64,000 bases of DNA from Sipunculus nudus (Eukaryota > Annelida > Sipuncula > Golfingiida > Sipunculidae), in assembly GCA_026874595.1 (NCBI GenBank), contig CM049313.1, positions 51,633,659 through 51,697,658 of the forward strand. The letters are read 5' to 3'. Position 1 is the first letter of the stretch; every line of letters begins with the position of its first letter. Below the pieces are notes generated by a model. That model worked only from the letters and a program-made list of their open reading frames with translations, did no database searches and was not told where the DNA came from. The position numbers and the translations under genes are program-made. Of the stretch, positions 49,151 through 64,000 are shown piece after piece.

Positions 49151-50379
49151 TATTATTATTATAATAATAATAATAACAAATGTAGTTATGATGTTTTGTT
49201 GTTATGATGAATAAATGACACCTAGTTATTTGCTATTTCATTTTAATTGTTTAATTTTCATTATAAAATACTAAAGTACTTAAAGACAGCCATAGATGAT
49301 CTATTTTGGGATGTATTTGTAATAACAATAGTAAAAAAATGTGAATATAAGCATAAGAATGTTGGTCTGAAGCTGAGGACATAATTTTCTCTTGGGAGTG
49401 AACTGCTCCAGATCGCAAGTTTTGCAAGACCACTTTTCTAAACCTAATTAAGCACTAACGGTTATGAATGATAACCCACTGATTTATAAATAATGACACA
49501 ATGATGCTCGTTTTGGCATGACAAGCAGGCTCAGGCTGACGAACTATACCTGCTTGATTTCAAACATGGTTAATTAAAAACACACACATATTCTAGGATA
49601 AACTGTTTGGTCGCTTACTCATGTTCGGGTGGGAGGGTGGGACTTTAGCTGTTTATATCGCCTACAGTACACTTACGAACACCTCCGTTTAGCGACCACC
49701 TCAAAACAACGACCAGTTTTTATTTAATTATCCCGATTCTTTTACGCTCTTTATATAAGACCTCGCCAGGATGACCACCTTTCAAATGTGACCACTTTAA
49801 AGAGGTCCAGAAGGTGGTTGCAGTTTCAAGGTTTTCTAGTGTGTGCATCCTCGGATATAATATCGGCACAGAACTAATCAATTAGATAAACACCCGGCTA
49901 CACAACCCTACTACAAAACTGTAAAATTTCACACTACTTGATATAAAAAAAAAAACAGTATGTTTTCGGTTCTTCATTTTCAATTTCAGAAAAAAAGGAT
50001 ATTCTGCAAAACAACGTTTGGAAAAGCGATATTCGTTTATAATGAATTTATTTAAGTTACGAATAAGCCGGTCTACATGCTTTGTCATGGTTATCCCTTT
50101 TCTATATATTTCCACTACCTACCAACGTCGGTGTGTACATTGACTCTATCCAGCCGTTTTACCTTTGAGATCAGTAGCGTCGGTATGACCAAGATCCTCG
50201 GGCGCTCGGTTCTGTGTCTGTAACATCGTAAACACAACTTCCGCCTTCACCGCCTTACATATCGCCATCAGATGATGTGGAGTTGGCATGTTCATCCGCG
50301 TCGTCATGGTAACGATTTGATCCAGCATGCTCAGTTGCTCTGTTACTAAGTCACTGATGCTCTTCTGTTTTGATAAAAC
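45896..50379 (-). CDS. DUF4239-type (bestrophin-like) membrane protein, C-terminal 220 aa in three exons
   Basis: Exons on minus: 50379-50163, 47771-47603, 46172-45896. All are bounded by AG and GT and the phases join (0, 1, 2) into 220 codons plus TGA. The first visible exon begins in phase 0 behind TGTTTACGTAG with VLSKQKSISDLVTEQLSMLD, so it is internal. The last exon has two hydrophobic segments (FLEILGVFSLFGVMFL and MIELTVFSTSMLCYVLA) followed by ADLDSPFDGFFRVD, the LD-x-PF-x-G signature near the C-terminus of DUF4239 proteins. Function is unknown; bestrophin-like channel folds have been proposed for the family. N-terminal exons carrying the first membrane helices were not found up to 64000. 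A CACT-type element end begins 30 bp upstream of the 50379 acceptor, suggesting the 5' exons were displaced by insertion. Confidence 0.75.
47603..47771 (-). CDS. DUF4239-type gene, middle exon
   Basis: 169 bp between TTGTTTCAG and CTCAA/gtgagt on minus. The frame reads EIWSIIDILRDAASHTEYKF and continues through LNDICSDRMGALHCKIHPLK into the last exon. Confidence 0.8.
49108..49178. repeat. (AAT)n / (ATT)n microsatellite
   Basis: About 14 AAT units run into ATTATTATTATT and back to AATAATAAT, an inverted triplet tract able to form a hairpin. It lies in the intron between the first two visible DUF4239 exons. Confidence 0.9.
50163..50379 (-). CDS. DUF4239-type gene, first visible exon
   Basis: 217 bp, donor CAAAG/gtaaaa. 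It encodes an amphipathic helical region with MLDQIVTMTTRMNMPTPHHL. Confidence 0.75.
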
Positions 50380-50408: not shown

Positions 50409-50600
50409 CACTCTAAAAAGTGCCGTTTCGCAAGTGTTTTAAAATCCATGGTGGTGTTTCATATAGAAACACGTTTGAACAATAGACATGTTTCGAAACA
50501 CCTGGAACTCAGCTCATGAAAATTTTCCGTGATCGAAACACCAGAAACGTGTTTACAAGAAGTACACACGTCTCAAACGTGTTTTACAAGCGTTTTCTGG
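50409..50600 (+). mobile_element. CACT-type left terminus with subterminal repeats
   Basis: Begins CACTCTAAAAAGTGCCGTTT. Within 190 bp there are at least six GTTTC, GAAAC or CGTGTTT motifs in both orientations (for example ATGTTTCGAAACACC and CAGAAACGTGTTTACAAG). A CACT terminus with clustered subterminal motifs is the classical layout of CACTA/EnSpm ends. The first exon of the SAMD3-like gene follows 130 bp later. The matching right end was not found before 64000. Confidence 0.45.
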
Positions 50601-50729
50601 TGCGACCTAAGTCACAACGGGCGTTATATTTGTCCTTTTCAATAACGGGCGGGAGAAGTCTCGGAAGGAAGAAAATGTTCTGACGGAACGCTGCAACTGT
50701 TTTTTAATGTTCTGCTGCCTCACAAAGTA

Positions 50730-50838
50730 ATGGAAGAAACCGAAATTACGTCTGATTCAACCATCGATACTGTGTGTCAGTGGGCAAGAACGAAATTTGC
50801 CGGAGCCGTGCAATCTGCGATTGAGAAGCGGTTGAAAG
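50730..50838 (+). CDS. SAMD3-like exon 1
   Basis: ATG at 50730, 36 codons plus one base (METs start MEETEITSDSTIDTVCQWAR), donor GAAAG/gtatcc. It encodes the first part of the SAM domain. Confidence 0.75.
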
Positions 50839-53800
50839 GTATCCTAGGCTCAGTATTTAATTATCGTGATTTATATTTAAATATGGTTCATATGAGTACT
50901 TGAATTGTGTTCACAACATGTGAGCACATTGTTAAAATATATATATATATATATATATTACATTACCTAATTTGCTACTTTATATGGTGCACAAGTATTT
51001 GTTTAAAAGTGGTGAACACATCAATAGATTTAGCACCACTCCCCCCCCCCCCCCGCACCAGGTTGTAGCTCTTGTGTATTCACTCGAAATTTGATTTATC
51101 TAGCAGACAGCACATGAAACTGATGCACAGTAGGCCTACTTTTGACAGTGTTCAGCATCTTGTCTACATTTTGGAATGTTAAAATTAAAGAAATTTGTTG
51201 TTTGTTTTCATGTATTTAAATCCCTTGTATATTACTAGCTGCTACACGGCTGTTCACTAGTGAAGGTGAGCAGGTACTTGTAGCACTAGTATATTACCAG
51301 ACATCATGATCCCTGCAATCATGCCATTTATACTAACATGAAATATCAATGAATACAAGAAGTCATCCTAAGTAGGATTCAAACCTGCAATCTCTAGATC
51401 AGAGACCAATTAACATGTTACTAACTGTACCATGGAGGACAAGATACCAGCTGGTAATATAAAATAATATTTCAGTATTTGCAAGGAAATAACATTTAAT
51501 GAAACACCTGTTTGCCATGTCTCATAAAAAGGACGGATTATGAACATACCTGTTTTGGTAACCCTGCATGGCTGAATGCAAGGCTAGCAGTAAAAATGAT
51601 ATATACCTGCTGACTGTATCATGTATGTACCTGCTGACTGAAACAACTGTTAGCTGTGGCCAGCTCACTGGGACATGTGACAGGCCTTGGTCAGCAACAG
51701 GTACACTTACAATTAAGGTACCGTGCAGTACAAGTATCTCAGCTTAGTATTCGGACTAGTACTTGATTTTTCCAGTACATTTTTGGCAAGGATTAATCCA
51801 AGTAATAGTACAGAATTTTTAGGTGTACTCAAGTACATGTACAGGAGTCTGTAATGAAGTACAAAAACATATCATTTAATTCATTTGTATAAAGAAAATG
51901 CACAAATTGTTCTAATTTTTCTTTTATTGTGTATAATAAACATTGTTTATATCTGTATCATTCACTGGATATGGAACAGGTTGCATAATTTGGCTTCTGT
52001 GAGAACATAGAAGTTTATGGTAAAAGGATATTAGTTTTTTGTTTGTTTTTAAAATCTTGTTCTTGACAAGTACTTGATTTTTCAAGTACATTTATTGCAA
52101 GTGCAAGTACAGTACAGGGACTGTATTTGGTTAAAAGTGACAGGTACAGGACAAGAACTCAGATATTTGTACTGAAGTACCAGTACCAAGTACATGTACT
52201 CAACCAAAGTCTGTAGGATGTAGGCCCATTTATTCACCGAGCCACAACTAGGTATAGTAACATCACACACCTCAGTGGTCACCCTAAATATAATGATGAA
52301 TCTTTGCCCATATACCTGTAGTATATGTATCTGTTTTTATCAAGCGATGGGTGCACTTGGTTAAAATTGCCAAGTACAAGTACAGGACAGGTACTCAGAT
52401 ATTTGTACTTAAGTATGAGTACCAAGTACAAGTACATGTACATAACCAAAGTCTGTAGAATGTAGGCCCATTTATTCACAGAGCCACAACTGGGTCTTGT
52501 GACATCACACACCTCAGTTATCACCCAAAGTATAATGATGAATCTCTGCCCATATTCCCATAGTATATATATATATCAGTTTTAATCAAGGGACGGCTGT
52601 ACTTGGTTAAAATTGCCAAGAACAAGTACAGGACAAGTACTCAGATATTTGTTCTTAAGTACAAGTACCAAGATATTTGTTCTTAAGTTCAAGTACCAAG
52701 TACAAGTATATGTACTTGACCAAAGCCTGCGGGATGTAGGCCCTTTTATTCACAGAGCCTCAACTGGGTCTTGTGACATCACACACCTCAGTTATCACCC
52801 AAAGTACAAAGATTGGTCGGTACTTGTATCCCCTTTGTATATATAACAGTATATATATATATAAATTTTAATCAAGCCATATGTTGGTCTCTTAACCCCC
52901 CCCCCCCCCCGAATTGGTCTGAACCAAGTGAGAATCGGTCTGACTTTGCATGTAATAAACATCTTTTTATTATTGTTAATTTATTTGAAAAAAAAAAATA
53001 ATGAATATATCACCTTGGAAACAAAACCCTTGTAAACAATAGCTCTTTTTCTGTCAGTATTTGCAACATGCCAAGATTTTATCAACTTTGGCATAATGCC
53101 AGAAACACATTGGGCCTGTAGGCCTTGTTACAAATACAATTAATACTTTTTCATGATAAACCACCATTTTAAAATATCTACAAATAAGTAAGATGGACAA
53201 GTAGATCCAAGATGAGAGATTTGCTCTGGTGAGACACTGTTGATGGTTTTGTATGGTTATATTCTTGTTTCAATTGGTTTTATTTCTGGCCATCCAAACA
53301 CCACACATGATCATAACAGCTTTATAAGTTATAATAGCGGTTTGCTCTTTTATTTGTAGTATTATAATATGTGATATACCTTCTGCATATATGTTCAAAA
53401 GATATCAGACATATAAATATTGTTATGCAACATGCTTTGTACTATTATTTATGGTTGTGTAGTCAGTAATTACTTATTATAATGCAATTTAATGTTATAT
53501 TCAACAGAAGGCATGTTGCTAATTTTATTTATTTTACAATATTAGTGGGTGTTGATACTTTTCACTGTGTCAAGTTTGAATTTGACACTTTGAGTAGTAG
53601 AATGCACCATTCAAATGATTTTTTTTTTTAGAGAACTTCATTGATGGAGAAGCTTTCTTGAGCCTAAAATTCGAGGATGTGAAGACTATGTTTCCTGAAA
53701 TTGGTTTACAGAAAGCATTTCTCAGGATCCTACAGAATGAACTGGGCCAGGTAATTTAGTCTTATCCTTTCAGGGTGAAATGGAGCCACTGTTCCAGTGC

Positions 53801-56800
53801 ACATTGTGTCCTTGTCAATTTACTCTTAAACCATTGCTGTCGCATCACATATTTAAGAGACACAAAGCCCACCCTTATTTTAATGTGTCATGTGTAGAAT
53901 GTGGAGCATCATATAAAAACTACAATTCCTTTAGGAAACATGTTAAAAGAAACCACAGTTCTGTCCAGGATCCAAGCAGTAATATTGAACAAGTGGACAG
54001 TGATGTTTTAGAAAATGTCAGATTGACAGATGATCAGCTTGCTGACCAGTTAGCAACTACATCACTGCTTGGACTCCTGCTGTTAAAGCTTAAAGCCCAT
54101 TATAATTTGTGTCGAGCTGGACTTCAAGAAGTAGTATCATCATGTTCTGATTTAGTACAACAAGTTGTAAAAGAGACTTGTGAAACTATCCAAGAAAGTG
54201 ATGAGATAAGTGAGGCTCATATAAGTAACATTTGTTCAAAAATCTCAGGAGAGATGATAGCCCCTTTGAATTCTGAATGGCAACAGCAGAAATATTTCAG
54301 GGAGACACTAAATTTGCTGGAACCTATTGAGCTAACAGTTGGAACAAGGATGAAGTGGAATAAAAAAAACAGAAGGATGGTCAAGGTAAAAGCTCAAGGA
54401 TATGTTGTGCCATTTTTGGACAATCTGAGGTCCTTGTTAAAGATCCCTGAAGTTAGGGAATGTATTAAACCAATAGAAAACTATAAAAGCAGGGATGATA
54501 AAATGAGAGACATTTATGATGGTGACTCTTTCAGTGTTACAAGAGAGAAAGAGTGTCAGCTTTGGATTGGGGCTTATTATGATGACCTCGAAATTGCAAA
54601 TCCTGTTGGGGTTCATACAAAAAAACACAAAATTGGAGTCTTCTACTGGCAATTACTGAATATACCACAGCAATATAGGTCTAAGCTACACTGCATACAG
54701 CTTGTTGGTTTGGCTAAAACAAAAGACATTAAATCATTTGGGATGAATGATATCTTAAGTGATTTTACTGGAGGATTGAAAGAACTGTACAGCAATGGGA
54801 TAAATGTGGATGGCCTTGGGGTTCTTTATGGCAAGCTGCTCACATTTAGTGGGGACAATCTGGCATTGCATACAATAGGAGGTTTCAAAGCAGGAGTGGG
54901 TCTTTCACACAGAATTTGCATGTCCTGCTATGCATCAAAGGATCAAATTACAAATCTAACTGTGCATGATGACTGTACATTGCGTCATCTAGAGAGGCAT
55001 ACCCAGGAGTGTGAAATTTTATCAGAGGCTCTAACGCCACAAGCCAGACAATATTGGTCTAAAGAATATGGAGTAAACACAAGATCAGTTTTAATGGGGC
55101 TTCCAGAATTTGACATTACAAAATGCCTACTTCATGACCCCATGCACATATTTTTTGAGGGTATATCCATGTACATTATTAAAGAACTTCTCAAAGATTG
55201 TATTCAGAAACATTTTTTCAGTCTAGCAGACTTAAATAATGCTCTTGAAAAGGTGAATGAATCTGGATCAGTGCCCATGAAGCCTAATCAGGTAGATCAA
55301 ATGTCACTCAAATCAGCTAAACTTAGGCAGACTGCAAGCCAGATGCAGTACTTTTCTCATTTGCTTCCATTGTTCATAGGAAACTTTGTTCCCAAGGATT
55401 ATACAAGATGGCAACACTTCATTGTACTTCTGAAAATACAAACACTAGTAACATCACCAGTGGCAGATGTAATCACAGTAAATTTGCTGAAACAGCTTGT
55501 GGCAGAATTCATCTCACAGGTTCCAGTTCTGTATCCAGATTATGCAACAATCCCCAAAATCCACTATATGGTTCATCTCCCTGAGCAGCTTCAGAAGTTT
55601 GGTCCACTTCGAGCACATTGGTGCATGAGATTCGAAGGAAAAAATCAAACGCAAGAAATACAGAAACTTCAAAAACATTCCTAAGACATTGGCATATTGT
55701 CACCAGCAGTGGATGTGCTTACATCAGTTTGAGAACCCAAGTTTTCTGAATCCCAGCCCAGTAACAAGTATGGGGAAATATGTTCCTCTTCCAGATTATA
55801 TCAGAAACATACCTGATGCACAAGCTGAACAGTGGTTTCTCTCCAGCTGTGTGAGAACATCTGGTGTAACATACAAAACTGGCTCTGTGGTTGTCATTTG
55901 GTCTGAAGGGGCAGATCACTGCATTTTTACTCAAATATCAGAAATATATGTTTCCAGTCTTACCAAAAAGGTGGTCATGTATGGGAAAAGGCACAAGTGT
56001 TCTACATATATTGAAAGTAAAAATGTTTATAACGTTTCTTTCAATGGAGGAGAGGGCATCACCATAGACCCAGGACAACTGGATGTTCCTTGGCCTGCTT
56101 TGTGCTTCCATACAGATGAGGAATACCACACTGTTGTCATCATCTCTGCACCATATGTGGAGCCATGATTATAAATGTAAATATTGTAAATCAGATTATT
56201 TCAAATCTGCTTTTTTTTGGCTCAGTTGACCATATGTGATCTGAGCTATAGCAATGACCCTTTGTCCATCTGTCTGTCCATCCAACCAGATATTGATTAA
56301 CTGCGCACAAACTAAACCAGTAAAGCTACCACCTTGAACTTTTGCATACAAAAACTGTTTATTACCATACATGAAATTGGTAACTGGGACCTAATGCCGT
56401 CATGCAATCAAAAGAAATCTCCATTTTACATGAATATCTAATTGTTACTCTTCAAGACTGCCTGATATTAAAACCACATTTTTTTCCATCAAGTTTCCGT
56501 GAAGGGTTTTCAGTATATTGTCCATGTTTGTGATGATAATTAAATCAATATTGCATAGTTTGTAGAGGTTACTGACTGTAATATGATGTACTAGTCCAAA
56601 AAAGTAGGAAAGATATGAAGTAAATTTAGATTGCACTAAGTTAATAATTTACATGTTAGAGTTATAAAAACTATTTGAGGACGTTATTAATTTTGCTCTA
56701 GATCTTAGTGTATACCAAAGATCAGATCTGACTTTGTGAATTATAGAAGTCATTGCTTTTAATTTATTTCAAGCAAAAAAGGTTTTCCAAATTTATCATT

Positions 56801-59800
56801 GGCAAATTTCTCTGCCAACAGAGATACAATTTAATTCTTCCATTGTGCATTGTTTTCAGGAGGATCTACATGAGTTCCCTGAAATTTTTTAGAACATCAT
56901 TTACTGTAAATGGAAATTTATGTAGACAAAAAGAGGTCCTGTCTAATGTCAGGCTCACTGCTCTTTCTTTCTTTATTTGTCAGTTCCAGTTATCATAGCA
57001 TCATCTTCAGTGGTCACGTTATGACATTGTCATCATTTCATTTCTTATGATGTGATCTCATTCATAGCTTGATCTCTCACAAAAGAATGAATGGTGCGAA
57101 TTGTGTAAATACTTGTTTAGAAATACTGGTCATAAATTACCAACGACAGCATTATCGTTACTGCAGATAACTTTTTTCCCTTTGTTAACATGTGTTAAAC
57201 TGATTAAAAATATAAATAAAAGTAAAGAGTACTATATGTTAATGAAATAAATTATACTTTATTTCCACATTGCATGGGTGTGTGTAGAAAAAATATACAA
57301 TCTGTTTTTGACAGTGTTGCTCTTCTGAACTTTGCAGTCAGTATGTTTGATCTATAAATGTTAATGCTATGATGCTATGTTTGCTGAAAGAATATTATTT
57401 TCACAAGGATTGTATTTTTGTCTACAGAAACTAGATAAAAGGGTATTCATCATTCATGATGCCAGCATAGGTGCTAGAGCAACAGTACTTCATGTAACTG
57501 TTAAATATGACATGCTGATCTGCAGACAACTGAGAGAAAGAACACATTTATGCTATGCAGACAATATTGCCAAGAAATTGCAGGATTTCCACACAAATTA
57601 CTAAAATGCTAGGCCAGGATTTAATTACCCTCCTAGATAATTTCAGCAGAGCACTGTGTCCTATGGATCCCATGTTAGCCAAAAGCATGTTCACTATCAA
57701 TATATGTTATTAAATATAGTATTATCTTCAGGGTAAAACACATTGAAAAATGCATCTACTCCATTATATAACCAATGTCACTTGGTCTCATTCCAGGCAT
57801 TTATACTTTATATACAGGTAGTCTTCCAGTGTGTGTTGTTATTTTTAAAGAGGCTGTAGAATTTCCGATTGTCAGGTAAAAGAAGCAGATAAGGATTATT
57901 TATAATTGGAATAACCTTATAAAAATAAAATTGTTCATATCTGTTTCTCTCTGTCCATTCCCTGACTTTATATTGTCATTACCAACAACAAGACTTAAAC
58001 TGTCATAATTATATTCAAATGATTTACTATTCCACAGGTGTTTGAAGATAACATGCTTCAATCTGAACCCAGTCACTCCCCCAAAGCAGGGCCAAGTCTT
58101 CCTGTGACAGCATCAACTGAGAAACTTGAAGATCTGCCTGTAGTTCCGTACCCAGCCCCGTTACCAAAGTTTTCTGGGCCTATTTCATCTGTGCTGAATG
58201 GGAATGACAAATCGAGGGTTCTTGCTGTTTACAACCAAATAATAGAGGAAGCTGCAGGTTTCTACATGCCTCTCTGTCCCACCAGTTCAGAAAGGGCTAA
58301 GCAGTCATATGAAAACATTGGTATGTTATTTTGTCCACAAATACCACAAAAAAGATTTACTCTTGTTCTCTTTGATGTTTCTCTGTTACATTTTCACTTA
58401 ACATGTTTTATTTCCCCCATACTGCCATTAATGGACTCCATCTATAGCTTTAAGTTCCTAAGGTTCTCAAGTTCTTATCTGTAGTTTCCTATTTTGAGGA
58501 TGTAAACTATAGTCTACATGATTTAAAGTTATATTGAAAAGCTTGTAATAAATATGACATCTGTCACAGACCTTTGATAAAATTTCATTTCCACAGCAGC
58601 TAAGATCATAGGTATAGGTAACTGTGTGAACATAAATATGCCAAAAGGGTTTATTTTTCACTCATTGGTGCTATTTAGGTTATGTTATCATTCACATAAA
58701 CTAAAAGGCCTTTACTGTTGGAACTTGGCTTAGACTGAGCTTGGAGAACAAAGTTATTGTTCCATATGTTTATTTGATCCAGTTTTAAACTGTAGTTCAG
58801 TGTGATGTCTCTAAGTTTAAGGAGCCGAAGAATATTTCTTTACCTGTGGGGTATGGTATAAAAAAAAAACCTGATTAAGGAGCATACTTAGTCCCCCTAA
58901 CTCTAGGAAGGAGGATTATTAAAATGGCCTGTGTCCATCTGTCCGTCCGTCCACACATCCAGCCTCCTCTTTTTACCAATTATCTTTAAAACCCCTGCTG
59001 CTTTCTTCTTTTAAAATAATGTTTCCTGAATCCACAGGACTCTGAATTTTACTGATTAAGAAATGTTATGACTTTTTATGTTTGCATATATTGTGCAAAA
59101 TCTGTTACCTTTTATCTCATGAACTGTTGCACAGGTTTAATATCACACAGGAATGATTCTTTAGTGGTTCTTATTCAAAGTTGTTCGAATGGATCTGATT
59201 CATTGAATTTTAGCTGAGTTATCAGAAGCTGAACTTAGTCATATGCATTTAGAACTCATTTCAGGACTTATTTGTTGGGTAAGACTGATACAAGTTTTCT
59301 TGACTTTTCTTTTCACAGGGAAAACGATGACAATAAAATACCCACTTTTGATAATGGAGGGAAAAAGCAGTTGGCAGTTCTTTAACACAAAATTATCTGC
59401 TTAAATAAGGAACACTAGAAATCGTCGAAAGGAAAAAATGAAGAAATTAAATACAGCTTGTGATGAATACCCAGCAAAAAAACCAAAGCTCTTGTCAACA
59501 GCAAGTTTGGAGGAAGAAGCTTCTCAAACAGAAGAAGAGGAGCTTGAGGTGGAAGATATTATTCAGAAATTAAAGGCAGAAAAAATGAAAGTTCAACCAG
59601 ACATGGAGAAAGTGAAAAAATGGCAAAGGGAAACATTTGAACATCGTAAAGATTGGATACATAGTAAGCCATCAACACAAATTACACTCAGCACAGTATT
59701 GATTGAATATCCTTGGCTAGAGGACACTGTTTGTACAAAACTTGAAATGGAAATGCTTGGATACAAAGAAGAAAGTTTCAAAGAAAACTTTATGGAATTC

Positions 59801-62800
59801 ATGAGAAAAATGGAAAATTTCCAAAACACTGGCTGTGACCTTAAAAAAGAAGCAACCATGTTGGAGCTCCTTAAAATTGCAGAAGCACGTGTTTCCCACA
59901 GAGGAAGAAAAAGAAAGAAGGAAGTGATAAAAATCCTAAAATCTGTAAGTTGTATTATATGTTTTTTGCATTTACCTGTGCTTATTCTGATTACCCTATA
60001 TCTAGCTGTTTAACTCAGCTGACTATAAGTCAACTGAGTTTAAGCAATGGTCCAGCGTCAGTTGTCCGTCTGTCGTTCTGTCCGTCCATCTGTGTATGCT
60101 TCAGTTTTTTATTGTATGGGGGGGGGGAGCTAGACTTTCATTGCCTTTTCAGTTTATTAGCGATCTGTATTTGCATTATGTCATTTGAAATCTAGCAATT
60201 CCATTTAACTTTACCGTTTAATACATTATAATTATAACTTAAAATCTTTTGGTCCATTGTTGTCTTCTTTCATATATTTATTGCAAACTTTCCATTGCTC
60301 TGTTGGGCCAGTATAATATATAAACATTCCTCCTTGACTAGCCCAATCATTTCTTCTACTTTGTCGTTAGTAAACCAGAGGCCTATCTTTTGTTGCTATA
60401 TCTGATCAAAATGCAAAATGCATGTGTGGAATGAACAAATCCAAAATTTATAGATTTTATGCTTGGCAGTTAATTGCCTCATTACAAAATAATCAACAGA
60501 AAAGACTTGTGTGATTAATTCTTCTTTGCATAAACACATTGGGAGTTACATTAGATCATACACAATGCCCATGAGCCATGATACTAGGCTGCATTTGAAG
60601 AATCAAGAGACTCAAGGGGTGTAATGTTCTTGTTAAATAGAACATGGTAATAAATAACGATGAAATAAAATTGTAAACTTGAAAATACCATTTCAGCTGT
60701 AGGCATGCATAAGTGGCACTTCCACAAAGTGGTTTAAATCTGGGAGTGAAATATACCATTACAGATAACAGGAGGGTTAAATTGGTAGTAGTGGGTACTA
60801 ATGTACTCTGGTGGCTTTACCCCAAGTCTCAGTCGAGTACTCATGGTTCTGAACACAGTATGAAGTTCTAAACAGGTAGCTTTTCAACAATGCAAATCAT
60901 GTATATATTGGACTTGGTGATATCTCTATGAATCGTTAGTATACATGCAATATGTAATTTGTTCTTGTAATTTTTATTTCGTTAGCAAGTCTCATCATAT
61001 TGGCCAAAACAAAGCCTGCTCTGGCTATAGAGCCCTACAGTAATAAATAATTAAAGACTGATCTCAGATTTGCTGTGATAAGCAGATATACTTTTAAACC
61101 TTGGATACATGAGTCCTAATTTTGGAACAGAGTGATTGGTTACAGTTGTTCAGACTCTTAGAAGGGCCCCTTTCAGCCTCAGCTCACAGAAAGAAAGGCT
61201 AACATAGGTGGCACTGTCTGTTGTTCAAATGATCAATTTCCTGTAAAACTAGAATACAGGTAGTTGACAAGCGACTAAATGTGTCTGCCAAAATCAGAGT
61301 CGGACTGGTGAAGTGATGCATGGATTGAGTGGCAAGGGGAAATAGATCGAGGTGTGTATGTAGGTTGCGCCACCTACCACAAAATCCAGAGAGCTGTCCA
61401 AGTTATACATATGCAAAATTTTAGGCAGATAAGTCAAACCACTACTTGTAAGTGATTTTATCACACAGCAGACAAACAGAAGGACGCTGAGCAAAAGTAG
61501 TGGCAGGTGGAGCCACCAATTTTGTGTACGATTAAGAGCTATGTAGATCTATACATATGCAAATTTCCAGGGAGATATGTCAAACCAGTCCTGAGATATT
61601 AGCATGGATGTCTGCAGCCAAAATGTGTTTGTAGGTTGCGCCGTCTGCCAAAAAATCGAGAAATGCCATCATAGATGTATAAACATGCAACATTTTAGGC
61701 AGATATGTCAACCACTGCCGAGATATGAGTGATTTTATCCCAAGGCAGATGAACAGATGGACGCTGTGCAAAAATGGTTGCAGGTGGAGCCACCAGTTTT
61801 GACTATGATAAAGAGCTATGTGAGGTCTGAACACTTGCAAATTTTGGCCCAATAGGTCAAACAGTTCCCAAGATATGAGCTATGATGTCTGCAGCATAAA
61901 TATGAATGTAGGTCGCGCCACCTGTCATAAAATCAAGAAAGCTGTCCAGGATGAATACACATGCAAAATTTCAGGTGGATAAGTCAAACCAATGCAGAGA
62001 TATGAGTGATTTTATCCCAAGGCAGACGAACAGATCGATGCTGTGCAAAAATTGTTGCAGGTGGCACCACCATTTTTAGTATATGTTGTAAAGATATCCA
62101 AGGGCTACATTTGTGCAAAATATTTAGCCTGATCGGTCAAACGGTTCCTGAGATATGTGGGTTTATGTGTGGAAACAGATGCACAAATGGATGCTGGGCG
62201 GAAGGGAAAGGTCAAAGGTCAGCCAAAAATGAGGGCGCAGCAGTTCACGTGACCCCATCATAATTCCGAATTTTAAAAAAACTGCCCAGTGGTTACAGAT
62301 GAGTTCTCCGGAAACCTAAGCGGCAGCGACATCTGACTGAAAACATGGTATCCACAAAACTCTGTTCTGGCTGATACAATTAGGTGCTCATAACTGCAGC
62401 CATTCCTGAGATGTTGGTTTACAGACATCATATTATGTATGCAAACACTTCCTGAAAATTTGTGACCAGCAAAATATAGAATTCTATTTCCAAGTTTGAT
62501 TATGCTATGCCTAATATTGTAGTAATCAGGTGTATGCCCTTTTAACAGATGATTGACACAGAAAGGGCCAATAGTATAGCCCAGGTGACTCAGAAAGTGA
62601 CTTCTGTTGCTTGTTGCATTCACATTTTTTTTTTTCAGGAGGAAGTATCACAGAACTCTCTGACATCAGTTACCAGTGAGGAACCGAGTTCAGTTTTTAT
62701 TGTTGATAAAGGAGAGGTCAGATCAAGCGTTATTTTGGGAGATGGAAAACAGATCAATCTGATCAAGGAAGGATGTGTGTGGGAGACGTGCTTTCTTTTA

Positions 62801-62947
62801 CTGGGATGGTATTACATCCTTAACCTCACATATCCACTACCCAACATGCAACTGTTGAATTTGCTTCAAGAAAACTGCCTTGAAGAAGAGGTTCCCATGA
62901 AGGACAAGTCTACAGGTTATAAGCAGTTTGTGGCTCTGCTCAAATGA
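50730..62947 (+). CDS. SAM-domain, SAMD3-like protein gene interrupted by one in-frame stop (5 exons)
   Basis: Exons: 50730-50838, 53632-53750, 58038-58320, 59319-59944, 62639-62947, all GT-AG with matching phases, 482 codons in total. Residues about 12-76 form a SAM domain (IEKRLKENFIDGEAFLSLKF; LQKAFLRILQNEL). Exons 3-4 follow the SAMD3-like pattern (PLPKFSGPISSVLN; YENIGKTMTIKYPLL; then IRNTRNRRK). Exon 4 adds RKDWIHSKPS and VLIEYPWLED. Exon 5 is the family C-terminus (SSVFIVDKGEV; WYYILNLTYPLP). Codon 199 is TAA (59402-59404), directly before the conserved IRNTRNRRK segment, so the full frame needs readthrough or the gene is a pseudogene or allele. SAMD3-like proteins are multi-copy in fish and invertebrates and of unknown function. 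A transposase gene lies in intron 2. AATAAA at 63298 is a possible polyadenylation signal. Confidence 0.75.
50938..50959. repeat. (TA)n microsatellite
   Basis: About 11 TA units in SAMD3-like intron 1. Confidence 0.9.
51360..51455 (-). repeat. tRNA-derived SINE head, second copy
   Basis: On minus: CCATGGTACAGTTAGTAACA (box A-like) and GATTGCAGGTTTGAATCCTA (box B-like) at tRNA spacing. Aligns with 8400-8490, including the flanking CAGCTGGTATCTTGTC. Not a functional tRNA. Confidence 0.65.
51720..52840. repeat. GTAC-rich tandem array in SAMD3-like intron 1
   Basis: Three units with a period of about 240 bp start near 52118, 52358 and 52598 (each with CTTGGTTAAAATTGCCAAG-like, GGATGTAGGCCCATTTATTC and GACATCACACACCTCAGT). 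A more diverged unit begins near 51770. Each unit contains 8-12 GTAC palindromes in AAGTACAAGTAC strings. The frames at 52082, 52279 and 52613 are by-products. Confidence 0.85.
53632..53750 (+). CDS. SAMD3-like exon 2 (SAM domain core)
   Basis: 119 bp behind a T9 tract and TTTTAG, donor GGCCAG/gtaatt, phase 0 out. It encodes the IDGEAFLSL core and the last SAM helix. The transposase ATG lies only 29 bp beyond its end. Confidence 0.85.
53780..55684 (+). CDS. CACTA-like (CMC superfamily) DDE transposase, N-terminal 634 aa, two C2H2 fingers
   Basis: The first 60 residues hold two C2H2 zinc fingers (C7, C10, H23, H28; C38, C41, H54, H59). The catalytic pattern follows: YYDDLEIANPVG at 266-277 (first Asp, 268 or 269), SGDNLALHTIGGF with D359, a CMSC pair at C380/C383, then LLHDPMHIFFEG with D453-x2-H456 and E460. 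The C-x2-C and D-x2-H insert before the last acidic residue is described for CMC (CACTA/Mirage/Chapaev) transposases. Near the end HYMVHLPEQ, FGPL and WCMRFEGK are typical of the same family. The frame breaks in an A6 run at 55639-55644 and continues one base over in the next entry. The gene is intronless, lies in intron 2 of the SAMD3-like gene on the same strand, and has a splice-acceptor-like CTTATCCTTTCAG seven bases before its ATG. Confidence 0.8.
   Translation: MEPLFQCTLCPCQFTLKPLLSHHIFKRHKAHPYFNVSCVECGASYKNYNSFRKHVKRNHSSVQDPSSNIEQVDSDVLENVRLTDDQLADQLATTSLLGLLLLKLKAHYNLCRAGLQEVVSSCSDLVQQVVKETCETIQESDEISEAHISNICSKISGEMIAPLNSEWQQQKYFRETLNLLEPIELTVGTRMKWNKKNRRMVKVKAQGYVVPFLDNLRSLLKIPEVRECIKPIENYKSRDDKMRDIYDGDSFSVTREKECQLWIGAYYDDLEIANPVGVHTKKHKIGVFYWQLLNIPQQYRSKLHCIQLVGLAKTKDIKSFGMNDILSDFTGGLKELYSNGINVDGLGVLYGKLLTFSGDNLALHTIGGFKAGVGLSHRICMSCYASKDQITNLTVHDDCTLRHLERHTQECEILSEALTPQARQYWSKEYGVNTRSVLMGLPEFDITKCLLHDPMHIFFEGISMYIIKELLKDCIQKHFFSLADLNNALEKVNESGSVPMKPNQVDQMSLKSAKLRQTASQMQYFSHLLPLFIGNFVPKDYTRWQHFIVLLKIQTLVTSPVADVITVNLLKQLVAEFISQVPVLYPDYATIPKIHYMVHLPEQLQKFGPLRAHWCMRFEGKNQTQEIQKLQKHS
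55644..56168 (+). CDS. Transposase C-terminal part, shifted by one base
   Basis: Directly after the A-run, the adjacent frame continues with NFKNIPKTLAYCHQQW, the expected family continuation after WCMRFEGK, and runs to a TGA at 56166-56168. Together the two frames encode about 795 residues. A single extra A at 55639-55644 explains the break. That can be a sequencing or assembly error, an inactivating mutation, or less likely a recoding site. The C-terminal domain contains SGVTYKTGSVVVIW and a Cys/His-containing region of unknown role. Confidence 0.75.
   Translation: MKRKKYRNFKNIPKTLAYCHQQWMCLHQFENPSFLNPSPVTSMGKYVPLPDYIRNIPDAQAEQWFLSSCVRTSGVTYKTGSVVVIWSEGADHCIFTQISEIYVSSLTKKVVMYGKRHKCSTYIESKNVYNVSFNGGEGITIDPGQLDVPWPALCFHTDEEYHTVVIISAPYVEP
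56208..56860 (+). repeat. Hairpin-headed repeat, partial copy
   Basis: Starts TTTTTTGGCTCAGTTGACCA with the paired TGATCTGAGCTATAG and CCATCTGTCTGTCCATCC. The body aligns loosely with 12104-13735 for several hundred bases. It lies between the transposase and SAMD3-like exon 3. Confidence 0.7.
57427..57604 (+). CDS. Possible alternative terminal exon of the SAM gene
   Basis: Behind TATTTTTGTCTACAG, 58 codons (KLDKRVFIIHDASIGARATV onward) run to TAA 57602-57604. The phase fits SAM exon 2, so splicing 53750 to 57427 would give a short SAM protein of about 134 residues. No domain is recognised in the tail. Alternatively it is a chance frame. Confidence 0.3.
58038..58320 (+). CDS. SAMD3-like exon 3
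   Basis: 283 bp behind ATTCCACAG, donor ACATTG/gtatgt. Pro/Ser-rich linker, then the SAMD3-like domain start (SRVLAVYNQIIEEAAGFYMP). Confidence 0.8.
58910..59260. repeat. Repeat fragment with (TCCG)n head
   Basis: CATCTGTCCGTCCGTCCACA is followed by a body sharing TTGTTCGAATGGATCTGATT-like and TTTTAGCTGAGTTATCAGAA-like motifs with the array at 20396-21440. Confidence 0.6.
59319..59944 (+). CDS. SAMD3-like exon 4, with in-frame TAA
   Basis: 626 bp behind CTTTTCACAG, donor AAATCT/gtaagt. The frame is open except for TAA at 59402-59404. The 191-codon frame from ATG 59438 could serve as a separate start if the stop is real. Acidic and Lys-rich stretches (KKPKLL, RGRKRKKE) look like nuclear localisation signals. 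Confidence 0.8.
60008..60130 (+). repeat. Hairpin-headed repeat, short 5' fragment
   Basis: TTTAACTCAGCTGACTATAA with the paired AGTCAACTGAGTT, then GTCCGTCTGTCGTTCTGTCC. Truncated after about 120 bp. Confidence 0.65.
61290..62180. repeat. Tandem repeat, about 270-280 bp period, in SAMD3-like intron 4
   Basis: Unit marker GTAGGTTGCGCCACC occurs near 61360, 61631 and 61908. Each unit also has CAAAATTTTAGGCAGATA, GAGTGATTTTATC and GGTGGAGCCACCA. At least three units, diverged. Confidence 0.85.
62639..62947 (+). CDS. SAMD3-like exon 5 (C-terminus)
   Basis: 309 bp behind an 11-base T-run and CAG, phase 0 in, ending TGA 62945-62947. It contains the WYYILNLTYP core of the family C-terminal domain. 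Confidence 0.8.
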   Translation, partial: EEVSQNSLTSVTSEEPSSVFIVDKGEVRSSVILGDGKQINLIKEGCVWETCFLLLGWYYILNLTYPLPNMQLLNLLQENCLEEEVPMKDKSTGYKQFVALLK

Positions 62948-63297
62948 CTTCATTACAACTCATTGACTCTACCCTATAATACCTGATGCTTAGATTACAG
63001 TGTGATAAAAACCTGTGTTATTAGTAGTTTGCAGCAGTGCTGAAATTGCAATTTTATATTGATTAGGGCATGATTTCTGGTATTTGAAAGTTATGAGGAG
63101 TAGTTCAGGATTTTTTATTGATGTTAAACACTTTACATTATTAAAGCATATTAAAACTTGTTTTTCATATTTTTGTAAAGTTAGTCAGTTAGATCGATGT
63201 TTTATTTTGGTATGAGCATAGTGATTTATAGTAAATCAATGAAAAACTAACAGCTGCTGGTAAAAACGACCCTTGAAAAGTATCCAATTTTTATATT

Positions 63298-63303
63298 AAT
63301 AAA
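63298..63303 (+). terminator. Possible polyadenylation signal of the SAMD3-like gene
   Basis: AATAAA 350 bp after the TGA at 62947 and before the downstream repeat starts. Confidence 0.35.
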
Positions 63304-63346
63304 TCAGTAATGCTTCCTTTGAACAGAAAATTTAAGTTTTACACTT

Positions 63347-64000
63347 TTATTAGCTCAGCTGACTATAAGTCATCTGAGCTATAGTCATGGTCCTTTGTCC
63401 ATCGTTTGTCCATCCATCCATTAACAGGGCACATTTTGAAACTTGGAGCTACAAATCCAAAATTTTGCATACAGTTAGATGTCCCCAAAATCTCCTACCA
63501 TGCCAAAAATTGGGTCATTAGGACTTTGTTCCTTTGAGATATTAAGGAAATACCTATGTTTTCCATTAAAAACCTATTGATACACTTCAAGACTGCCTAA
63601 TATCAAAACCACTGATCTGTTTTACATCATATTTAATATGCATATTTTTAATTCCATACATTTCCTGTGTTCAAACCAAAAATTGGTTCAGTATTACTTA
63701 ATTTATTGAAGTTATACGCCCAAACATAATGCACTTTTTAAAAAATCAGGAAATATATTTACTCACTTAACATAAGAATTGCTGAAGCTAGATACTTTTT
63801 TTTCAGGGATATAACTTTATTTAATCAAGGTCCAATTGTTTACCAAAAAGAAGATCTAAATTTTGCAATTTTTTAAAGTTATTAGCATAAATAAAAAATC
63901 AATACCTTAAATTTTGGCCACGGCACAATTTTCCCCTGTAAGCTCTGTTGATTTAATTTTCACAGCATATATACATAATTTAATTTATTAAAATCTGAAA
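63347..64000 (+). repeat. Hairpin-headed 1.65-kb repeat, runs off the window
   Basis: Starts TTATTAGCTCAGCTGACTAT with AAGTCATCTGAGCTATAG, then GGTCCTTTGTCCATCG. It aligns closely with the first 650 bp of the 12104 copy and continues past the end of the window. Confidence 0.85.

Follow-up and report, generated by a model that had tools for sequence, protein, structure and literature searches.

A 64,000-nucleotide stretch of the Sipunculus nudus genome (C8:51633659-51697658, hereafter the window) contains part of a mobile element in which a five-exon SAMD3-like gene and a CMC-type transposase located in its second intron are supported, by sequence comparison, as components of one DNA transposon, because both genes lie between exact ends that are shared with other copies and are mostly accompanied by target duplications. 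We consider it probable (roughly 0.8) that this is a two-protein, cut-and-paste CMC transposon composed of a DDE-type transposase and the SAMD3-like accessory exons surrounding it, a figure that covers the mechanism proposed below as well as the structure. The first-pass annotation of the window had suggested that the two genes form a single element, and comparisons within the 1.43-Gb assembly (153 contigs) bear this out. The name SAMD3 is a provisional label for the accessory gene.

The whole element measures 16,453 bp and extends from window position 50409 (CACTCTAAAA) to window-equivalent position 66861 (TTTTACAGTG, L039:3520), which is 2,861 bp past the end of the window; the portion inside the window occupies 50409-64000 on the plus strand. 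The 5' terminus (CACTCTAAAAAG, 50409-50420, plus strand) is an imperfect inverted match to the 3' terminus (CTTTTACAGTG), and TA flanks the element on both outer sides. The CACT terminus with clustered subterminal motifs that had been noticed ahead of exon 1 starts 321 bp upstream of the exon 1 ATG, and the first 232 bp of the element contain eight copies of AAACA/TGTTT, compared with a mean of 0.73 and a maximum of 5 in 1000 single-base shuffles. This array of AAACRYGTTT-like motifs (50430-50600, no strand assigned) has a similar counterpart at the right end (L039:3045-3520), where 19 motifs occur in 476 bp (1.69 in shuffles), and repeat arrays are found at both ends in two families. The inverted CACT terminus sought beyond position 64000 was found at 66861, together with 2-bp duplications. 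A search of the rest of the window for the left end in inverted orientation found nothing, and no terminal inverted repeats were seen enclosing 53751-57400 alone.

The left-end search of the genome returned 34 matches; the 14 other places that match at 97% or more and include the terminus all start at query bases 9-21, the first base of the element being query base 20. The corresponding right-end search listed 42 matches (40 of 153 candidates scored), and the whole 476-bp query is covered at 96% or more by at least 16 of them, the window included. Among the six left-end stretches examined, the end is present in four and lies further out in the remaining two, while five of six right-end stretches contain the end. 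Sixteen copies, including the window, were read at both ends (C9:72.82M and C1:29.30M are only 84-91% alike); copies with ends outside this set include C12:17.57M, C16:27.16M, C15:49.10M, and C9:18.47M. Both exact end motifs are kept in 14 of the 16, the first bases of C11:19.54M and C1:29.30M being altered and these two copies excluded from the exact-end count. Matching 2-bp flanks occur in 12 of the 14 exact-end copies (eight TA, two TG, one AA, and one CA; exact ends without a matching flank in C17:50.70M and C15:1.79M), a count that must be read with the knowledge that chance 2-bp matches arise more easily in AT-rich flanks. For C17:28.81M the right flank comes from individual reading, the pattern search having picked a later false match. 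The flanks of the element differ between copies, and exons 1 and 5 of the accessory gene lie inside the shared mobile ends.

The SAMD3-like gene comprises exons at 50730-50838 (start codon and first part of a SAM-like domain), 53632-53750 (second part of the domain), 58038-58320, 59319-59944, and 62639-62947 (including the stop codon), all on the plus strand. The five-exon model originally annotated is upheld: the splice phases match and the joined exons form one frame, interrupted by one in-frame TAA in exon 4 (59402-59404). The SAM domain is a weak Pfam match (SAM_Ste50p, E 0.0042, below cut-off), and Pfam and PDB searches with the SAMD3-like proteins returned weak SAM matches or nothing useful. 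The transposase (53780-56168, plus strand), which carries two N-terminal C2H2-like fingers, had been correctly placed in intron 2 on the same strand; its ATG at 53780 is 29 bp 3' of exon 2 and is preceded by a putative, splice-acceptor-like TTTCAG (53768-53773, plus strand). The transposase frame is broken near 55.65 kb (53741-55684, then 55629-56168), so that, with the exon 4 TAA, neither gene of the window copy is intact. Neither of these broken frames, nor the right end beyond the window, had been recorded in the first-pass annotation.

Among the seven close copies (window included), the exon 4 stop is confined to the window's copy, and three copies, none of them the window's, have an open transposase frame of 811 codons. 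In all seven, SAM exon 2 is located directly 5' of the transposase (97-100% identical) and exons 4 and 5 lie downstream of it; exon 3 is likewise found in all seven, partially in C1. At the protein level, exon 1 is 100% identical wherever the left end falls inside the six stretches examined (four copies), and 97% identical in C4:21.91M. The transposase frame lies inside intron 2 of the accessory gene in the seven close copies and in two diverged relatives, on C2 and C10, an arrangement like that of En/Spm.

The pairing recurs across the genome. The transposase search was evaluated over 68 rows (the best 68 of 227 candidates), which represent 57 places, the 11 dropped rows being further pieces of places already counted. 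The window SAMD3-like protein gave 89 rows (the best 89 of 425 candidates), and single proteins from two relatives were also used as whole-genome queries for diverged accessory exons. The resulting SAMD3-like pool consists of 67 of the 89 rows plus 32 and 51 from the relatives' proteins; the 22 excluded rows (10 exon 1/2, 10 exon 3, and two overlapping exon 4) belong to places already represented. At 28 of the 57 listed transposase places, a SAMD3-like match follows downstream on that strand within 30 kb, compared with 0.081 places on average and never more than 2 in 1000 runs with shifted positions, so that the co-occurrence check suggested earlier gave a positive result in this genome. A same-strand match upstream only occurs at 2 of the 57 and an opposite-strand match only at none, and the window protein used alone as query accounts for 12. 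Copies of the same family are not independent: 11 of the 28 places belong to the wider family of the window, 10 to a family on C3 (of its 11 listed places), and seven to further lineages (C15:11.99M, C7:19.44M, C16:45.63M, C11:15.80M, C3:51.92M, C6:26.22M, and C6:27.34M). Two more places, C4:71.92M and C4:82.88M, were found by profile only and stand outside the 28. Viewed from the accessory gene, a scored transposase (best 68 of 227) lies on the same strand, up to 30 kb upstream, at 28 of the 123 SAMD3-like clusters. On these comparisons, the association is kept in strongly diverged transposase families of one genome.

The relatives differ in how much of the accessory gene can be recognized. 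The element at C2:35.70M encodes a transposase that is 58% identical to that of the window and open over 814 codons; its termini match, a SAM-like exon 1 candidate lies 355 bp inside the end, and exons 2-5 follow in order at 62, 56, 47, and 52%. In the C10 relative, the transposase is 64% identical and SAM exon 2 (57%) lies upstream of it. Between the C2 and window exons 2-5, the proportion of nonsynonymous differences (pN) is 0.318 and that of synonymous differences (pS) 0.784; for the C2 and C1:22.11M transposases, the values are 0.257 and 0.773. Only the direction of these ratios is reliable, since synonymous sites are saturated, and purifying selection appears to act on both proteins. At C15:11.99M (33%), exon 4-like (5e-5) and exon 5-like (2e-10) matches are enclosed by CACTGTAAAAA...TTTTTACAGTG ends that are flanked by TA on either side, a pair chosen for these ends and flanks from 12 candidates in an inverted-terminus search allowing up to two mismatches; the same search gave one candidate pair in C3 and two in C4:71.92M, none of them convincing. 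At C4:71.92M (transposase 34-40%), an exon 1-like piece was seen upstream by eye, without a Pfam match, and exon 4-like (5.8e-4) and exon 5-like (4.3e-7) matches lie downstream. The transposase there is tentatively placed in intron 1, as the exon 2-like (0.018) and exon 3-like (0.017) matches are hardly better than the best control match (0.033). C3:8.61M (30%) has exon 4-like (8e-6) and exon 5-like (0.007) matches, and one exon 4-like match (9e-4) was found in the 6 kb examined downstream of the C4:82.88M transposase (27%). In control DNA, the best match of the two-family profiles was 0.033 (102 kb searched), and the five-family profiles matched nothing in ~70 kb even with E values as high as 1 allowed.

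Seven aligned transposases (two of them 98% alike) share invariant D281/D282, D372, C393-x2-C396, H608-x3-H612, and E632, as well as the C and H residues of the two C2H2-like fingers; the assignment of catalytic roles among the invariant D and E residues is putative. DUF4218 is detected below cut-off in all seven, and Transposase_21 in two (best 5.2e-5). Mirage elements have a TA target duplication. The CMC signature described in passages of PMC12730594, namely a catalytic D, D, and E, where the stretch from the second D to the E contains C(2)C and H(3-4)H motifs, is present in the aligned transposases. The same source gives CMCT ends as mostly 5'-CA..TG-3' with target duplications of 2-5 bp, matching the CACT..AGTG ends and the 2-bp duplications in 12 of 14 exact-end copies seen here. 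For EnSpm it gives a 3-bp duplication; the 5'-CAC..GTG-3' ends of that group are found here (CACTC/CACTG..CAGTG), while the plant core CACTA itself is absent. Judged by these sequence features, the element is placed in the CMC superfamily and not in EnSpm proper, because the duplication is 2 bp rather than 3 bp.

The mechanism that we propose begins with a promoter at the 5' end that would drive a shared first exon. Splicing of exon 1 to exon 2 would yield the SAMD3-like mRNA, whereas splicing of exon 1 to the acceptor ahead of the transposase ATG, with exon 2 skipped, would yield the transposase mRNA; exon 1 is suggested as the donor for either acceptor because the exon 2 donor and the TTTCAG site are only 23 bases apart, too little for an intron. 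Acceptor-like sites were seen by eye near the equivalent position in the C2 and C10 relatives. The SAMD3-like protein would bind the AAACRYGTTT-type subterminal repeats through its exon 3-5 region, and self-association of the SAM domain would draw the two ends to each other for the transposase, in the manner of TnpA and TnpD in maize En/Spm. Both the shared splicing and the TnpA-like role are inferred.

Several observations weigh against this interpretation of the element. Splicing of exon 1 to the transposase acceptor would put a stop in the second codon past the join, so that the transposase's own ATG would be needed. Domain searches recognized no DNA-binding domain in the SAMD3-like protein, and a single-sequence structure model of the uninterrupted stretch of exon 4 was poor (mean predicted local distance difference test score 50.3, predicted template modeling score 0.20). 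No SAMD3-like match within 30 kb was found at 29 of the 57 transposase places; among these are fragments and places at 26-29%, which may have diverged too far for the three queries to detect. Conversely, 95 of the 123 SAMD3-like clusters, among them seven shortened derivatives, have no scored transposase (best 68 of 227) alongside; most of the others may be decayed elements, may belong with transposases that were not scored, or may be genes of the host. The outer flanks of C2:35.70M (GT and CG) form no target duplication, and the duplication of the window family is 2 bp, mostly TA, in place of the 3 bp of EnSpm/CACTA. In the C3 family, the accessory exons found are all 3' of the transposase and the accessory N-terminus appears not to be SAM-like; a transposase in an accessory-gene intron was not seen there.

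An unlikely alternative is that the role of the SAMD3-like protein is to counteract silencing by the host rather than to bind the ends, in line with proposals for the TET/JBP proteins of fungal elements. In fungal CMC-type elements, a second gene has been proposed to help in escaping silencing (passages of PMC12730594), and maize TNPA acts on a methylated promoter (passages of PMC1636069), but no enzyme domain was found in the SAMD3-like protein, and most SAM domains serve contacts between proteins.

Whether the protein serves the element at all can also be questioned, since pairing of the ends reveals seven copies of ~7.7-7.8 kb (C17:50.70M, C4:21.91M, C2:51.41M, C5:47.76M, C2:39.01M, C16:59.46M, and C15:1.79M) with no transposase match among the best 68 of 227 candidates. 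In the sole derivative read whole, C4:21.91M, exons 2 and 3 and the transposase are missing, and what remains of the genes is exon 1, the end of exon 4, and exon 5; exon 5 is found, with stops, in all seven. By these comparisons, a shortened derivative without transposase has multiplied, and maize dSpm derivatives resemble these copies. Such multiplication after loss of most of the gene would be expected if the SAMD3-like gene were a captured passenger and movement were independent of its protein, although help in trans would also allow it, and the majority of clusters without a scored transposase point the same way. We nevertheless regard a passenger as quite improbable, given that the association recurs where the transposase is only 26-39% identical to that of the window and that the SAMD3-like protein appears about as constrained as the transposase.

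Chance insertion of a transposase within an intron of a SAMD3-like gene that belongs to the host can be dismissed as having next to no likelihood: the transposase frame alone could pass for an intronic insertion and 23 SAM-domain matches occur elsewhere in the genome, but shared ends with target duplications and differing flanks surround both genes, exons 1 and 5 included, the same order recurs at 28 of the 57 listed places, and the whole element itself appears to lie within an opposite-strand gene, in its last intron. Taking the element out of the sequence together with one TA leaves a 478-bp intron and a continuous reading frame in that putative gene. Two of its probable exons, at 50149-50379 and window-equivalent 67292-67600 (minus strand), flank the element, which would lie 29 bases from the final exon; they encode hydrophobic stretches and match no Pfam family above cut-off.

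With a two-protein CMC transposon as the preferred reading, the closest known parallel is maize En/Spm (TnpA/TnpD), with which the element shares two proteins, a transposase frame in an accessory intron, CACT-type ends, subterminal arrays, and shortened derivatives. It differs in its C2H2-like fingers, in the SAM-like domain of its accessory protein, in the use of intron 2, in the 2-bp rather than 3-bp duplication, and in splicing that is here predicted from sequence. The maize details are partly general background and partly drawn from passages of PMC1636069. The nearest published precedent found is SmTRC1 of Schistosoma mansoni, an animal CACTA-related element that was assigned to the CACTA superfamily with a 2-bp target duplication and that has a Transposase_21 domain and several spliced transcripts for further proteins (passages of PMC1636069). 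SmTRC1 differs in its CCC ends, 54-bp inverted repeats, and length of ~4.5 kb, and in the passages seen, its proteins PrA and PrB are described as lacking detectable conservation and no link to SAM is made (PMC1636069). Fungal CMCT elements with TET/JBP likewise encode a second protein beside a CMC-type transposase, and 2-5 bp duplications and CA..TG ends are given for their group, but the second protein is a dioxygenase and not SAM-like, while Harbinger-type elements (Nuwa) pair a transposase with a separate DNA-binding Myb/SANT protein in another superfamily and with another partner (passages of PMC12730594). Among the matches listed from 5.39 million open papers, none links SAMD3 or SAM proteins to CACTA-type elements in its title or abstract; two that contain both EnSpm and SAM terms (PMC11760641 and PMC7070046) have titles on other topics. 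A record confined to Repbase may exist.

An animal CACTA-like element was described in 2006, its further proteins being reported, in the passages seen, as without detectable conservation (PMC1636069). In the genome studied here, the accessory protein is conserved and has remained paired with the transposase in families that diverged deeply. By extension, the multi-copy SAMD3-like genes of fish and invertebrates may be accessory proteins of CMC transposons, with an oligomerizing, end-binding function and interchangeable N-terminal modules, and the single-copy vertebrate SAMD3 may be domesticated. We regard this extension as rather doubtful, and do not rate it higher because 95 of the 123 clusters are without a scored transposase (best 68 of 227). 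If it is true, a multi-copy and seemingly host gene family consists of transposon genes, gene counts and expression studies listing such genes as host genes need correction, and a testable animal counterpart of TnpA is at hand.

Some further features accompany these elements. No Rfam family reaches its gathering threshold in the window, and viral contigs contain no match to six peptide patterns from the transposase. Tandem arrays with 242-bp and 277-bp units occupy 52135-52672 and 61358-62077 (introns 1 and 4), and SmTRC1 also holds a tandem-repeat region. A dispersed repeat occurs several times in the element (56214-56283, 60009-60074, and 63347-64022), each matching one same stretch of the C2 relative. 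The multi-copy CMC family at C3:8.60-8.62M has an 823-codon transposase frame; its accessory exon 4 occurs at 12 places at 99-100%, 11 of them without a stop, and the accessory N-terminus matches Pfam DUF5537 below cut-off (E 0.00027). Beside the C3 element (bases 1-2166 of locus stretch L080) lies an open frame that appears reverse-transcriptase-like by eye. Exon 5-like sequences also occur in multiples, with two matches at C12:73241359-73241835, between matches to both element ends, and seven in tandem within 2.7 kb at C13:28384664-28387328.

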